Virus record (IMG/VR): IMGVR_UViG_3300023082_000260
Location: 1-24,828 of that record
Strand: one strand, 5' to 3'
DNA from: a virus
DNA: 24,828 nucleotides
Below, in pieces: positions 19,949 through 24,828 of the stretch (within the stretch, counting starts at the first letter, position 1; the number at the start of each line of letters is the position of its first letter). The position numbers were made by a program, and so were the translations under genes. The notes under the pieces were generated by a model. It was not told where the DNA came from. It made no database searches and saw only the letters and a list, made by a program, of their open reading frames with translations.

Positions 19949-20320
19949 TTAGTCTATATCAGATTCGCTTTTTTTTTCGGAAAGCCGACGCAGCTCGCCC
20001 AGCAGTCGCTGGTTCTCTCTGAGAAGGTGGTCGCGCTGACCTGTGACCAGGTCGATCGGTCGAAAGCTCACGTTGTCAGGTGCCTCGCCGCTCAATGCCG
20101 ATATGCGTTCAAGGGCATCCCTCAACCGGGTCTCTGCCGCGGCTTTGCCCGTGGCGAGCAGGTCATTCATCTGCACCAGGCCGGCCACATTGGCCCGGGC
20201 CTTTCGCAGTATCGCCTCGGTCTGGATGAGCTCGTCCTCGAGCAGGGCGCACTGGTGTTGGTACATTTCCAGGGGCGTGGGGCAGCCAAGCCAGTCATCG
20301 GTATCCATGTCAACGTTCAT
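19949..20320 (-). CDS. Coiled-coil protein of unknown function (123 aa), SOS-box controlled
   Basis: This runs leftward, opposite to the late operon. The N-terminus is acidic (MNVDMDTDDWLGCPTPLEMY). Residues of about 20-75 form a long helix (ALLEDELIQTEAILRKARAN, then AETRLRDALERISALSGE), and a second helix ends the protein (RDHLLRENQRLLGELRRLSE). The heptad patterns suggest a coiled-coil dimer. There is no membrane segment or known motif. A nearly perfect LexA box ends 16 bases upstream of the start, so expression should rise on DNA damage. The SD is weak. A run of nine A's in the coding strand near the 3' end could allow slippage. By position (right prophage end, LexA-controlled) it recalls Tum, the antirepressor of phage 186, but I see no sequence similarity. 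The rightward overlapping frame looks like a shadow. Confidence 0.75.
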   Translation of the reverse strand: MNVDMDTDDWLGCPTPLEMYQHQCALLEDELIQTEAILRKARANVAGLVQMNDLLATGKAAAETRLRDALERISALSGEAPDNVSFRPIDLVTGQRDHLLRENQRLLGELRRLSEKKSESDID

Positions 20321-20335
20321 ATTTCGAAACTCATA

Positions 20336-20355
20336 TACTGTATGTGCGTACAGTA
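20336..20355 (-). promoter_or_regulatory. LexA-binding site (SOS box)
   Basis: TACTGT-ATGTGCGT-ACAGTA is a symmetric match to the gammaproteobacterial LexA consensus CTGT-N8-ACAG, and the outer TA bases also match. On the minus strand a TATATG just downstream could act as -10, so LexA would block RNA polymerase. The only gene placed to use it is the leftward 123-aa ORF (start 20320). Confidence 0.88.
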
Positions 20356-20419
20356 ATCGAGGTGTTGCAGATTTGGGAGTGGTGTTCGTCGGCAGGACGC
20401 CGGGAGAGGGGGGTAATCA

Positions 20420-20491
20420 TTTCCGCAACCTGATACGCACTCCTTGATCTGCGCGGCTTTCAGCTCGCTCACATTTTCTCAAGTGCGGAAA
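20420..20491. repeat. Inverted repeat near the prophage end
   Basis: TTTCCGCA (20420-20427) is repeated inverted as TGCGGAAA (20484-20491), separated by 56 bases, just inside the attachment site. It could be a pair of integrase or accessory-protein arm sites, or could be chance. It lies in the gene-free stretch between the LexA box and the tRNA fragment. Confidence 0.35.
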
Positions 20492-20530
20492 CTATTGCAG
20501 GCTAAGCTGTTGTTAAATATGAAATAATCG

Positions 20531-20594
20531 CCAGTCTTGAAAACCGGCGGACGTTAAGAGCGTCTCCAGGGTTCGAATCCCTGGTTTCCCGCCA
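20531..20594 (+). other. attR: 3' fragment of a tRNA-Ser(UGA) gene marking the prophage right end
   Basis: The segment contains the anticodon loop CTTGAAA (anticodon TGA). It also has an imperfect anticodon stem (CCAGT/ACCGG, with one mismatch) and a long class-II variable arm (GACG...CGTC). The T-arm (CAGGG-TTCGAAT-CCCTG), the acceptor 3' strand GTTTCCC, the discriminator G and the encoded CCA (20592-20594) complete it. The acceptor 5' strand and D-arm are absent upstream, replaced by AT-rich phage-like DNA. This is how a tyrosine-recombinase prophage integrated at a tRNA anticodon loop looks at attR. The intact tRNA should be at attL, left of the window. Confidence 0.85.
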
Positions 20595-20606
20595 AGATTC
20601 AAACGA

Positions 20607-20630
20607 AAGCCCCGCGAAAGCGGGGCTTTT
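20607..20630 (+). terminator. Intrinsic terminator of the tRNA-Ser transcript
   Basis: A 9-bp stem AAGCCCCGC (20607-20615) / GCGGGGCTT (20620-20628) with a GAAA tetraloop is followed by T residues. It lies 12 bases after the tRNA CCA end. It is host DNA that has been separated from the original tRNA promoter by the prophage. Confidence 0.9.
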
Positions 20631-20985
20631 GTGTTTCTGGGGTTTGGGTGGGGTTCGACGGCTTTCCATTGGGCGTCCATAACGCTTGAGGTGTTCCAGA
20701 ACTTTCCTATCTTGATGCCTTGTCCCGGCGCAAGCGCAACACAATCAGGGCGCATGCGCAGCGCGATCCCACGGTCATTACCCCATCAATTTTGTGACTT
20801 TTCTGACGAGCTTTTTCTCGTCATCTCATTGTTTTTTTACTATTATCGTCCATCTGCGAACTCAAGGAAGAGAGGCTGAGCGCCTTGAGACTGGTAGAAA
20901 ATTCACACTTGATCATTGACGGTGTCATGACTTTTACCCAGAACCTAACGACTCAGCCAACCATAAAGACCTCTTGGTGAAACCG
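20631..20985. other. Gene-free stretch between tRNA terminator and lipoprotein gene
   Basis: I see no convincing gene here; the rightward open frame at 20631-20879 has no recognisable content or SD. It holds a perfect hairpin TGACGAG (20802-20808) / CTCGTCA (20815-20821) with a T-rich stretch 8 bases later, possibly a weak terminator. It also holds one member of an imperfect 20-bp repeat (20625-20644) whose other copy is at 21709-21728. A lipoprotein promoter must lie in the last 100 bases, but no strong -35/-10 pair stands out. Confidence 0.5.
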
Positions 20986-21483
20986 ATGGATAAAATGTGT
21001 GGCGTCGTTGTAGTGGTAGGCCTTGCTCTCTCGGGATGCGTTACTAAAACTCCAGAAAAACCTAAAGTGGCTCCCCCTCCTGCCGTCGTCCAGCAAGCAC
21101 CCTCTGAAGTCGCACCTTCGACACCCGCAAAATCGCCTGAGGGCTATGAGGCCGTCCCTGCTAACGCCAGTGCTGACGTCCCAATCGCTACCTATCCCAA
21201 AGCCGCTCCGGCGGAATCAGAGACAGGCCTGAACCAGAATCGCGCTGAGCAATGCCGTAAAGAGCTGGATGTCTTGAGGCTCTACAACAAAGCGTCTTAT
21301 GCCAAATACGAAGCGGAATACCAGACCATTGCTGTCAAGACTGCCAAATACATGGAAGTCAAAGACTCGTTGGGTCCCGATCTAAACTACATGGTAATGC
21401 CCGCCTATCAATTCCAAATTCGTGAGTTCTGCTTCCGCGTCAAGACTCGTCTGTCGGAGCTGGTGCTTCGCCAAGCCAAGTAA
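20986..21483 (+). CDS. Predicted lipoprotein of unknown function
   Basis: This 165-aa protein uses ATG 20986 (alternatives are TTG 20974 and ATG 20995). The signal peptide MDKMCGVVVVVGLALSGC carries a lipobox LSGC, with lipidation predicted at Cys18. Next is a Pro/Ala-rich linker (KPKVAPPPAVVQQAPSEVAP) of about 60 residues, as in proteins that reach through the periplasm. A helical domain follows, with two cysteines (AEQCRKELDVLRLYNKASYA and REFCFRVKTRL) that could form a disulfide. I recognise no family. It is the first gene outside the prophage and is probably host chromosomal. Confidence 0.8.
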   Translation: MDKMCGVVVVVGLALSGCVTKTPEKPKVAPPPAVVQQAPSEVAPSTPAKSPEGYEAVPANASADVPIATYPKAAPAESETGLNQNRAEQCRKELDVLRLYNKASYAKYEAEYQTIAVKTAKYMEVKDSLGPDLNYMVMPAYQFQIREFCFRVKTRLSELVLRQAK

Positions 21484-21949
21484 GTATTCCGCGTCAGGGT
21501 GCGTCTTTACGCGTCAACGAAGCTCTGAATATGGCATCTATGTCTGGTGAAATGCTCGTTTCATGCGGCATTCAGCAAATAGTTTTCACTCGTTCGGCGG
21601 GAAAGCGCGCTTTATTTATACAAGACCGCGAAAGTAAAGGCCCCGACTAGTCGGGGCCTTTACTTTGAGCCGGCGCGGACTGCGTTTTCACACAGCCAGA
21701 ATTGCGCAGCTTTGGTGTTTCTGGGGTTGAGTCGAAGCGTGGCGAAAACTGCAGGCTTATGTACATTTATGCCTAAGGTTTGCGAAACATCCGGCCAACC
21801 GACGTATGTGCGACGCGACGTCTCGACGTACACCCAATAACCATGTCAACGCTGGTTGGACCTTCGGTGTTGAAACGCGAGGCAGTGCCTTGCGTAGGTT
21901 GAGACCCGCAGTGACGCGCTGCCTCCTCCGACAAAAATGAGCAATTTAG
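21484..21949. other. Gene-free stretch with palindromic terminator
   Basis: No supported gene is found. The notable element is the 36-bp palindrome at 21631-21666 (listed separately). The second copy of the 20-bp imperfect repeat lies at 21709-21728. A short open frame around 21770-21940 has no start, SD or recognisable content. The stretch looks like eroded or recombined DNA. Confidence 0.5.
21631..21666. terminator. 36-bp perfect palindrome, probable bidirectional terminator
   Basis: Bases 21631-21648 are exactly the reverse complement of 21649-21666. The RNA would form a stem of up to 16 bp with a CTAG loop, GC-rich in the middle (GGCCCCGA) and flanked by A-rich and T-rich arms. This suits termination in both directions. 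It lies 148 bases after the lipoprotein stop. Confidence 0.75.
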
Positions 21950-22147
21950 TGTATTAAGTTTATTGGAGTGCTAAAGAGAAACCATCCTGATCTTGTGGTT
22001 TTTGACCCTGAACCTTGCTTCTGCCCAAGCGGAAAATGCTCGCTATTTAAAGATAGAAAGTTACTGCTAAATGATTTTGACCATCTTTCAAAACATGGCA
22101 GTAAGCTTTACATCGATAGCCTTCTCATCAGAAATGAGCAACCTTAG
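21950..22147 (+). pseudogene. 3' remnant of an acyltransferase/SGNH-domain gene
   Basis: The frame ending at TAG 22145-22147 encodes about 65 residues, IKFIGVLKRNHPDLVVFDPE, then CFCPSGKCSLFKDRKLLLND and FDHLSKHGSKLYIDSLL. This matches the conserved end of OafA-type acyltransferases with an SGNH domain: two Cys, then D-x-D-H-L-S-x-x-G with the catalytic Asp and His. An in-frame TAG at 21947, no start and no upstream transmembrane part show it to be a truncated remnant. It is clearly diverged from the complete acyltransferase downstream, so it comes from a different gene of the same family. Confidence 0.75.
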
Positions 22148-22830
22148 GTAGCAATCAGTGCGTTGATAGGGGGGCACGTACGGTTGTAGGTGCTCAGCGC
22201 GATCAATCCTTGGTGCACAATCGATGCCGGTAGCCAAGGAGTGAATACCTTGCCAGCCAGTCAGGGTTACGCGAAAGAAGTTTTCGCACTTAAGTCAAGG
22301 CGCCCACTCATTGAATCACGCATCATACCGTCAGAGACCACTTCTCACGAATAATCCTGCAAGGGGCATGCTGTGCTCCATGCAAAAAAGTGAGCGGCGT
22401 AGCCCCCAAGGAAGAAGCACCTGAATCCATAAGTGGAATAGCCGATGCCCAAAAAATGGGTTGACAGCGTCGTGGTTTCCAAAAAAAGCAAGGGTCGAGA
22501 AAGACTGTGCAGTGTCTGTACTAAAAATACGGTAAATCACGCAATTCTTCTGGTATCAAATTGACAGGCGTACAGGTGGTAGTTCATTCTTCGCAGCTTT
22601 TCGATAGCCATGTAATTGCATTTTCTATTTTGGTCGCGGCAAGGGCGAGTTATTGAGGTGACGGGCAGGCAGTTAAAGTCATTTTTAGGCGCTGCTATAG
22701 GTGAAAATTGTTTGATCGGGTGCACATCGTGTCTCGGTTACCAGTGCTTTAAGTCATCGTTGCTCTGTATTGTTGATCTTTCTTAAGTGTGAAAGAAGTA
22801 TTGAGTCGATATTAAATCGTGAGCCTTGGA
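22148..22830. other. AT-richer stretch without a supported gene
   Basis: About 680 bases separate the acyltransferase remnant from the complete acyltransferase. Two short leftward open frames (22331-22540 and 22537-22725) have no SD, known motif or plausible neighbours, and I do not call them. The base composition is lower in GC than the prophage. The last 80 bases must contain the promoter of the acyltransferase; TATTAAAT at 22810-22817 is too close to the start to be a confident -10. Confidence 0.5.
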
Positions 22831-24828
22831 ATGTTACCAAAAAAGCAGCAAGCGTTTAGAAAGGATATCAATGGGCTTCGCGCTTGGGCTGTCCTTACCG
22901 TTGTACTCTACCATTTTTCCGTTTTCGGTTTTAGAGGTGGATTCATCGGCGTTGATGTGTTCTTTGTCATTTCCGGATTTTTGATGACGGGGATTATATA
23001 CAGAGCATTGAGCGCTCCGGGAGGCTCTCAGTTTTCCTTTATCAACTTTTATTTGGCCCGGGCTCGCAGAATAATTCCTGCCTTGTTAGCGGTGTGTATA
23101 GCACTTCTGATTGCAGGATGGTTTTATTTGCCCGCTGTTGATTATGGTGTGTTAGGCAAGCATGTCGCGAGTGCGTTGGGGTTTTATTCTAATTTTCAGT
23201 TTTTGAGTGAGGCCCGGTATTTTGATGCTGAGTCTTACGACAAATGGTTGCTTCATACCTGGTCTCTTTCGGTAGAGTGGCAATTTTATATTTTACTTCC
23301 ATTATTCATGGCTGTGCTCTGGAAGCTCAGGCCCAGTAAAGCAGTGATGACGTTCGGTCTGGCTACATTGTTTGTTATGTCACTCTGTATTTCAGTGATT
23401 TTTTCCATCTCTTACCCGTCAGCCGCGTTTTATCTATTGCCCACGAGAGGGTGGGAGATGGCAGCAGGCGGCTTGGTTTATCTAACGGCGGAAAAATGCG
23501 ACCTCCCTCAGAGGATGCGTCAATGTATTGAGCTAATTGGGTTTAGCCTGATAGTTGTTTCGGTGGCGATGCTGGATGTCACTGATGTATGGCCCGGTTC
23601 GCTCGCATTGATTCCTGTGCTTGGAACAATGATGGTTTTGATTGCTTCCAGGGAACGTTCGATATTGACATCGACTGCAATCGCTCAATGGTTGGGGAGT
23701 CGTTCTTATTCTATCTATTTGTGGCACTGGCCCATCGTAGTAGCGCTGGTCTATACCGAATATCAGAGTTCCGCAGTCGCTATCGGTTTAGGATTGTTAG
23801 GCACATTCGTTTTGGGCAGCCTGTCCTATTCAATGATTGAGAAAAGCAAGCTGTTCCTGTTCAGCCGTTTTTCGTCCCTGGTGACGTTGATCGTCTTTGT
23901 GATTCTTTCTGCCGTTTTCGCGGGTGTAGGTCTTTTTGTTAGCTTTGTCGGTGCGAATGTTGAAGGCAGGATTCCGCCTCGAGCGAATGCCGCGTTCGAG
24001 CAAGCGAATAATGTGGATGCCCGACATGAGCTGTGTAAGCATTTCGATCATTCTAAAATATACGACGCGGCCTCCATCACGGGTTGCACTTTTGGAGGCG
24101 AACACTTGGCAGCGATCACAATAGGTGATAGCCATGCTGGGGCGCTGGTAAAAGCCGTGGAGTTTGCGCTGCCGAGTAAAAACGATCATGTCTTGCAATG
24201 GACGCTGGATGCGTGCCCTACGGTACTGTCGAGTAAAACGACGGATGGGCTTGACGAGTGTGGTAAGTTTGTCGCCTGGGCGTTAGAGCAACAGAAAGTA
24301 TTACCGAAAAACGTACCCCTGATCATTGTGAATAGGACTTCACTGTATGCGTTTGGACCCAACGAGTCCGATGATATCCTTAAGCGACTGCTAGCACCCA
24401 TGTATTTTGAATCGCCCGATTCCCATGGGCTGCCAGAGCATCTGGAAAAAATGCGTGCTGGAATTATAGACACGGCGTGTGCATTCAAAGCAGACCGGGA
24501 AGTGTATTTAGTCAGGCCCATACCAGAGCAACGTATCAATGTGCCGAAATTCACCGGCCGAGCGTTACTATTCGGGGTAGAGCGAGATATTTCCGTTTCC
24601 ATGGAGGAATACAAAAAGCGTAATGCGTTTGTTTGGGAGGCGCAGGATGCAGCGGTGGCCGCATGTGGCGTTAAGGTTCTCGACCCTCTGCCATTTCTGT
24701 GCGAAGAGCGTGCATGTCATGGTTCAAATGGGGGATTGCCCATCTATTACGATGATGATCATTTGAATCTGCGAGGTGCTGCATTGTTGGCGCCAATGTT
24801 TTCAACGGTATTTAAAAATAAAGAGTGA
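22831..24828 (+). CDS. OafA-type membrane O-acyltransferase with C-terminal SGNH domain
   Basis: This is a 665-aa protein from ATG 22831; a GTG at 22819 would add four residues, and both have poor SDs. It probably O-acetylates a surface polysaccharide (O-antigen or similar). Residues 1-350 form an acyltransferase-3 domain of about ten membrane spans. Signatures are RKDINGLRAWAVLTVVLYHF (Arg and His28), FIGVDVFFVISGFLMTG, HTWSLSVEWQFYILLPL and SRSYSIYLWHWPIV. One more span leads to a periplasmic SGNH domain. It has GDSH at 432-435 (nucleophile Ser434) and a DDDHLN block with catalytic Asp and His644. Such two-domain proteins pass an acyl group across the membrane and then onto the sugar. Its stop is the last codon of the window. 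Codon use is more AT-rich than the prophage, as is usual for surface-polysaccharide genes. Confidence 0.93.
   Translation: MLPKKQQAFRKDINGLRAWAVLTVVLYHFSVFGFRGGFIGVDVFFVISGFLMTGIIYRALSAPGGSQFSFINFYLARARRIIPALLAVCIALLIAGWFYLPAVDYGVLGKHVASALGFYSNFQFLSEARYFDAESYDKWLLHTWSLSVEWQFYILLPLFMAVLWKLRPSKAVMTFGLATLFVMSLCISVIFSISYPSAAFYLLPTRGWEMAAGGLVYLTAEKCDLPQRMRQCIELIGFSLIVVSVAMLDVTDVWPGSLALIPVLGTMMVLIASRERSILTSTAIAQWLGSRSYSIYLWHWPIVVALVYTEYQSSAVAIGLGLLGTFVLGSLSYSMIEKSKLFLFSRFSSLVTLIVFVILSAVFAGVGLFVSFVGANVEGRIPPRANAAFEQANNVDARHELCKHFDHSKIYDAASITGCTFGGEHLAAITIGDSHAGALVKAVEFALPSKNDHVLQWTLDACPTVLSSKTTDGLDECGKFVAWALEQQKVLPKNVPLIIVNRTSLYAFGPNESDDILKRLLAPMYFESPDSHGLPEHLEKMRAGIIDTACAFKADREVYLVRPIPEQRINVPKFTGRALLFGVERDISVSMEEYKKRNAFVWEAQDAAVAACGVKVLDPLPFLCEERACHGSNGGLPIYYDDDHLNLRGAALLAPMFSTVFKNKE

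Follow-up and report, generated by a model that had tools for sequence, protein, structure and literature searches.

A probable C-terminal relic of an AT3-SGNH O-acyltransferase gene in a variable interval next to a tRNA-Ser(UGA) integration site

The virus record IMGVR_UViG_3300023082_000260 comprises 24,828 bases, and this whole stretch of DNA was analyzed and is called the window in the following. Near its right end, on the plus strand, 65 codons without an internal stop are followed by a TAG stop codon (positions 21950–22147), and after a gap of 0.67 kb a complete acyltransferase gene follows. This raises the question of what the short frame is and how it came to lie there. Very probably, it is what is left of the C-terminal end of an AT3-SGNH (OafA/OafB-type) gene, without function and located in foreign DNA of a variable interval. 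By itself, the fragment is an ordinary gene remnant of little significance.

A preliminary description had assigned the 65 codons to the C-terminal end of an SGNH-type acyltransferase with a Cys...Cys...DxxH motif, and a profile search verified this assignment. The fragment matched the Pfam family SGNH (PF19040) with an E-value of 1.7e-8 and 34.9 bits, above the curated cut-off of 27, and the match was confined to profile positions 198–243 of 248, the last fifth of the profile. The match to PHROG 6705 ("O-antigen acetylase") was weak (E 9.1e-4). As a control, a profile was built from 13 relatives with the fragment left out, and it was scored on the 472 stop-to-stop segments of at least 30 amino acids from both strands of the window. 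The fragment ranked first with 68.4 bits, a segment of the complete acyltransferase was second with 31.5 bits, and the third segment reached 8.1 bits. The top score of 20,000 shuffled versions of the fragment was 19.6 bits. An alignment of 14 sequences showed no variation at Cys 25, Cys 30, Asp 42, and His 45; the block V DxxH and the Cys pair in front of it are thus retained. The Cys pair, five residues apart, corresponds to C567/C572 of Salmonella OafA and the DxxH to D587/H590; when these residues are exchanged in OafA, 50% of the activity is left for the Cys pair, 10% for the Asp, and <1% for the His (PMC7448272).

The fragment shares the C-terminal profile with the OafA/OafB-type AT3-SGNH proteins (PF01757 plus PF19040); in contrast to them, it consists of the last 65 codons only and lacks both the AT3 domain and the GDS nucleophile block. 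Judged by its sequence, it is a remnant of the AT3-SGNH O-acyltransferase family and not a working member. In a functional parent, the AT3 domain would carry an acyl group across the membrane, and the periplasmic SGNH domain would put it on a surface sugar. The relic is roughly the final tenth of such a gene and retains the catalytic Asp/His block. As the AT3 domain and the nucleophile block are missing, the chemistry of the family, and with it the activity of the parent, would not be expected from this scrap, given the known anatomy of the family.

The 5′ side was analyzed with tblastn, using parts of 30 relatives (233–754 amino acids) as queries against both strands of 21301–22830. The queries began about 500 residues before the match, and the first part of the AT3 domain lay outside of them. 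The fragment was matched by 29 of the 30 relatives, and none of them revealed convincing homology further upstream in any frame. This included the block I GDS nucleophile as well as the AT3 domain, the latter with queries devoid of its first part. Two weaker signals were seen, a gapped extension to 21839 with 33% identity by L043 alone, and a match of L050 at 22211–22327 (E 0.007). An in-frame stop is located just before the fragment (21947–21949), and the G+C content steps from 0.556 (21716–21931) to 0.375 (21932–22147). The A+T-rich lead-in at 21932–21949 has no recognisable coding homology and, given the G+C step and the homology limit, is the probable truncation junction. By composition, the foreign stretch starts nearer to 21932 than to 21950, which is a minor correction. 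The proposed cut on the 5′ side was thus verified, and the fragment is a truncated relic, not a frameshifted gene. A frameshift or an assembly error that hides an intact gene in another frame was set aside, because tblastn gave no convincing homology beyond the fragment.

A deletion after, or during, transfer would have cut the gene. Several points argue against the relic as the best explanation. The 65 codons are uninterrupted up to a natural end, and decay after the truncation is not visible. The parent was not retrieved, and the signals of L043 and L050 extend beyond the fragment. In addition, the window is a single record, and its assembly may be chimeric at the junction.

The left 20.5 kb of the window are a tailed prophage with a tail sheath. 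Genes for the terminase, the major head protein, the sheath, the tape measure protein, a fibre with its assembly protein, and an endolysin were recognized with PHROGs; for the fibre, the top family is of unknown function, and tail-fibre families are next in the list. The prophage ends at about 20.6 kb with the 3′ part of a tRNA-Ser(UGA) gene (20531–20595), which together with its terminator forms the right-hand half of the prophage's attachment site (20531–20640, plus strand). The tRNA gene is incomplete, and its reading as a whole tRNA was rejected, as ARAGORN found 0 genes. Further to the right are a gene for a lipoprotein-like protein of 169 amino acids (20974–21483, plus strand; LSGC motif read in the sequence), then 1.3 kb without recognised intact genes, and then the complete AT3-SGNH acyltransferase gene (669 amino acids, 22819–24828, plus strand), the end of which is the end of the record. 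The spacer between the relic and the complete gene (22148–22818) contains no recognised genes; its two minus-strand frames yielded no Pfam match, and its best match to the fetched loci was not significant (E 0.087). A search of plasmids with 21700–22830 gave zero matches, a search of phage DNA with 20400–24828 gave short pieces from 5 of 50,697 records, each with 3% coverage, and Rfam returned only matches under the gathering score for 20300–22900. Both acyltransferase sequences are located beyond the prophage, and their presence in a virus record is no ground for labeling them as phage cargo. This boundary is a useful correction of the annotation.

The 3′ ends of tRNA genes act as attachment sites, and gene remnants at tRNA-linked hotspots are common. 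To view the site in relatives, loci with the lipoprotein gene, which is present in 25 of 398 Pseudomonas genomes, were collected. The first set contained 25 loci (23 from genome contigs and two viral), including P. marginalis, P. fluorescens, P. simiae, and P. viridiflava, and reached up to 8 kb downstream; in the two viral loci, the DNA extends 1.2 and 2.1 kb past the gene. The second set contained 19 stretches around lipoprotein matches, 18 of which contain the locus and one (L160) the left flank only. It partly overlaps with the first set, with several strains in common, and 7 of the 25 genomes with the lipoprotein gene are outside of it. An intact tRNA-Ser(UGA) gene of 91 nt was present in 9 of the 25 loci; the copy in L006 starts 27 nt before the shared part. 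An att-like copy is located just to the right of the lipoprotein gene in ten of the 25 loci (L004, L005, L006, L008, L010, L012, L013, L018, L026, and L027). With the exception of L005, which has the right copy only, these loci have a left one as well (9/25), so that the lipoprotein-like gene is flanked on either side by an att-like copy of the tRNA-Ser(UGA) end; it resembles the minimal remainder of an element or a cassette that has been retained.

A conserved gene follows downstream in 17 of the 25 loci and in 16 of the 18 further stretches, and the interval up to it measures between about 0.7 kb (L012) and 13.7 kb (L163). Its contents vary as well and include a gene for a fimbrial-type protein (L017), a PAS-GGDEF gene (L003), a chemotaxis receptor gene (L018), and a gene for a LysR-type regulator (L021); in L003 a gene for a TonB receptor comes after the conserved gene. 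Within the DNA covered, an AT3-SGNH gene was found at the site in none of the 25 loci and in none of the 18 partly overlapping stretches. The comparison of strains that had been proposed to reveal which acyltransferase each of them carries yielded a single AT3 gene. This gene is AT3-only, comes from a strain contained in both sets (L013, L163), and is located on that side of the attachment site where the prophage is. In L013 this gene (PF01757; 6099–7391, minus strand) adjoins the tRNA-Ser end at the border of the prophage. Profile searches for AT3 and SGNH in 23 stretches related to the right edge of the prophage (L194–L216) gave no match. The suggestion that the neighbouring tRNA is a hotspot held for the locus, where tRNA-Ser(UGA) is indeed a hotspot of integration; it did not hold for an intact tRNA in the window, which has only the 3′ part. 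As in other tRNA-linked hotspots, the 3′ part of tRNA-Ser(UGA) is repeated around integrated DNA and the cargo varies among relatives; the difference is that the right-hand att copy of the window has shrunk to a 25-nt tail adjoining an IS end. A literature search found no paper on AT3/SGNH genes with prophages or on tRNA-Ser with murB.

The genome G184 turned out to be a sibling. Its lipoprotein-gene product is 99% identical to that of the window, and its DNA is 97.3% identical over 20531–21547, where the match ends. The order in G184 is a murB-like end, an intact tRNA-Ser gene, the lipoprotein gene, a degenerate tRNA-like tail, a PAS-like gene on the minus strand, and the conserved gene; murB, the tail, and the PAS gene were named by sight in G184, and MurB was profile-scanned in L006 only. 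The PAS-like gene occupies the position of the PAS-GGDEF gene of L003. No match to the prophage of the window was found in 37.5 kb around the G184 site, and no acyltransferase match was found at the site. As the match stops at 21547 and the acyltransferases are missing, the window contents to the right of about 21.57 kb are not common to G184. The foreign DNA with the relic would have replaced the usual contents of the variable interval downstream of the block of murB, tRNA-Ser(UGA), and the lipoprotein gene, in a host that is probably a Pseudomonas close to P. fluorescens/P. marginalis.

Between the lipoprotein gene and the relic, the window contains debris of mobile elements (21596–21728). 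The sequence 21596–21700 (plus strand) had a match in 14 of 398 Pseudomonas genomes, and in 19 loci it was found with 76–87% identity over 53–110 nt. In 7 of the 19 loci a DUF772/DDE transposase gene (DUF772/DDE_Tnp_1) is located beside the matching end, two of the seven being interrupted; the short DNA covered at the remaining 12 loci revealed no transposase. Because of the seven loci, 21596–21700 was interpreted as the right-hand end of an IS, which we take to be IS1182-like. In the window no transposase match and a single terminal-repeat-like site were found, and therefore it is a solo end. It has a terminator-like hairpin (21631–21666) and, at 21681–21695, TGCGTTTTCACACAG, which may be read as a terminal repeat. 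The same IS end is present at the same place in L015 (4233–4339; 80% over 107 nt). It is followed by a probable decayed copy of the downstream (att) tail of tRNA-Ser (21704–21728, plus strand), which is 88% identical to 20620–20644 over 25 nt, a short and statistically weak match (best E against the att regions of relatives 2e-4). In the simplest reading, the IS would have entered the second att copy and then decayed.

The preliminary description had called the downstream gene complete but different from the relic, and BLASTP between the two indeed gave no match at E ≤10. As the complete gene was second in the profile control, both belong to one family in spite of this result. Relatives of the complete gene are present in 185 of 398 Pseudomonas genomes at E ≤1e-60 (best identity 52%) and in 57 loci of viral records. 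The prophage records L088, L092, and L125 share DNA of the endolysin region with the window prophage (70–83%) and carry a gene that is 42% identical to 22819–24828; in L088 and L092 this full AT3-SGNH relative has fibre-like DNA on one side and endolysin DNA on the other and is encoded on the opposite strand. L141, which shares the endolysin region at 67%, carries a relative that is more distant. O-acetyltransferases on phages that alter the O-antigen are known (PMC9558356). Together with the relatives in L088, L092, and L125, this makes transport by phages plausible.

The search for the full-length parent of the fragment with tblastn did not retrieve it. In 59 of 398 Pseudomonas genomes the fragment had matches at E ≤0.001, in 66 places, and the best place by E-value showed 42% identity. 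A search across the wider order gave matches in 4 of 293 genomes at E ≤1e-5. The fragment also matched 13 of the 57 viral loci in which a relative of the complete gene is present, at E ≤0.01 with 29–44% identity. The only tblastn match in phages at E ≤0.01 was DBA08743.1, an O-antigen acetylase of Pseudomonas phage vB_PaeS-D14O (41.7% over 48 columns); that gene is of full length and inside a phage record, whereas the relic is outside of the prophage, past the attachment-site half. Plasmids gave zero tblastn matches, and peptide-pattern scans of the genome and viral contig collections gave no confirmed relatives. The top identity of any relative was 49%, in local alignments over 39 and 45 columns, and at this level none of them qualifies as the parent.

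How the relic and the complete gene came together can be explained in more than one way, and the complete gene may have arrived in the same or in another event. As for the origin of the ACYLTRANSFERASES, judged from one record, a single event is at least as likely as two, because neighbouring AT3-type frames occur in other genomes. That one transfer brought a segment in which a truncated and an intact acyltransferase gene were already joined is compatible with the relic and has close to an even chance. L191 has three AT3-type frames within 6.3 kb (the middle one weak, 31.7 bits), and in L178, L179, L180, and L183 a weak frame (17–19 bits) directly follows the relative of the intact gene; against this, the same gene order was seen at no other locus, and the spacer is without significant similarity.

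The preliminary description had favored repeated replacement of surface-modification genes. In its site-specific form, successive tRNA-Ser elements would each have brought such a gene, with the relic as an earlier loser, which is also compatible with the relic and is rather unlikely. Two dissimilar AT3-SGNH genes at most 0.7 kb apart, the att-like copies around the lipoprotein gene, the AT3-only gene at the L013 prophage edge, and the 42% relatives in the L088, L092, and L125 prophages are in favor of it. However, no AT3-SGNH gene was found in the loci of either set, the interval contains other types of genes there, and the right-hand att is a short tail scar, so that delivery by site-specific integration is not demonstrated. 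Replacement was thus not supported as stated, and what speaks for it as a repeated process comes from this window; overall, the earlier observation was confirmed and its interpretation was partly supported. It is tempting to speculate, with a similarly low probability, that the block of murB, tRNA-Ser(UGA), and the lipoprotein gene is a double attachment array in this group of Pseudomonas. The small lipoprotein gene would be enclosed by two att copies, and foreign cargo such as the two surface acyltransferases would be exchanged beyond the second copy, with phage-borne acyltransferases like those of the related prophages as one source.

It is very improbable that an intact gene was broken up by an error of assembly or sequencing: the record is single and without reads, but neither strand of 21301–21950 has convincing homology, the IS-end scar is nearby, and a simple frame error fits poorly. 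A live small protein of 59 codons starting with GTG at 21968 is hardly credible, since, in spite of the open frame with conserved residues, no spaced ribosome-binding site was seen by eye, the Ser block is missing along with most of the fold, and 65 of the 66 matches in the 398 genomes are in frames of at least 590 amino acids (the other in one of 234 amino acids, L058).

Two minor observations were made in addition. Relatives of the intact gene with one or two internal stops were found at least six times among the matches listed (G392, G324, G128, G208, G031, and G200), and decaying copies of this family seem not to be rare in Pseudomonas. The IS ends, with or without transposase (the window, L015, and L064–L082), precede a G+C-rich, terminator-like sequence with a T-run in several loci, as seen by eye, and it seems as if this IS with a DDE transposase might target terminators.
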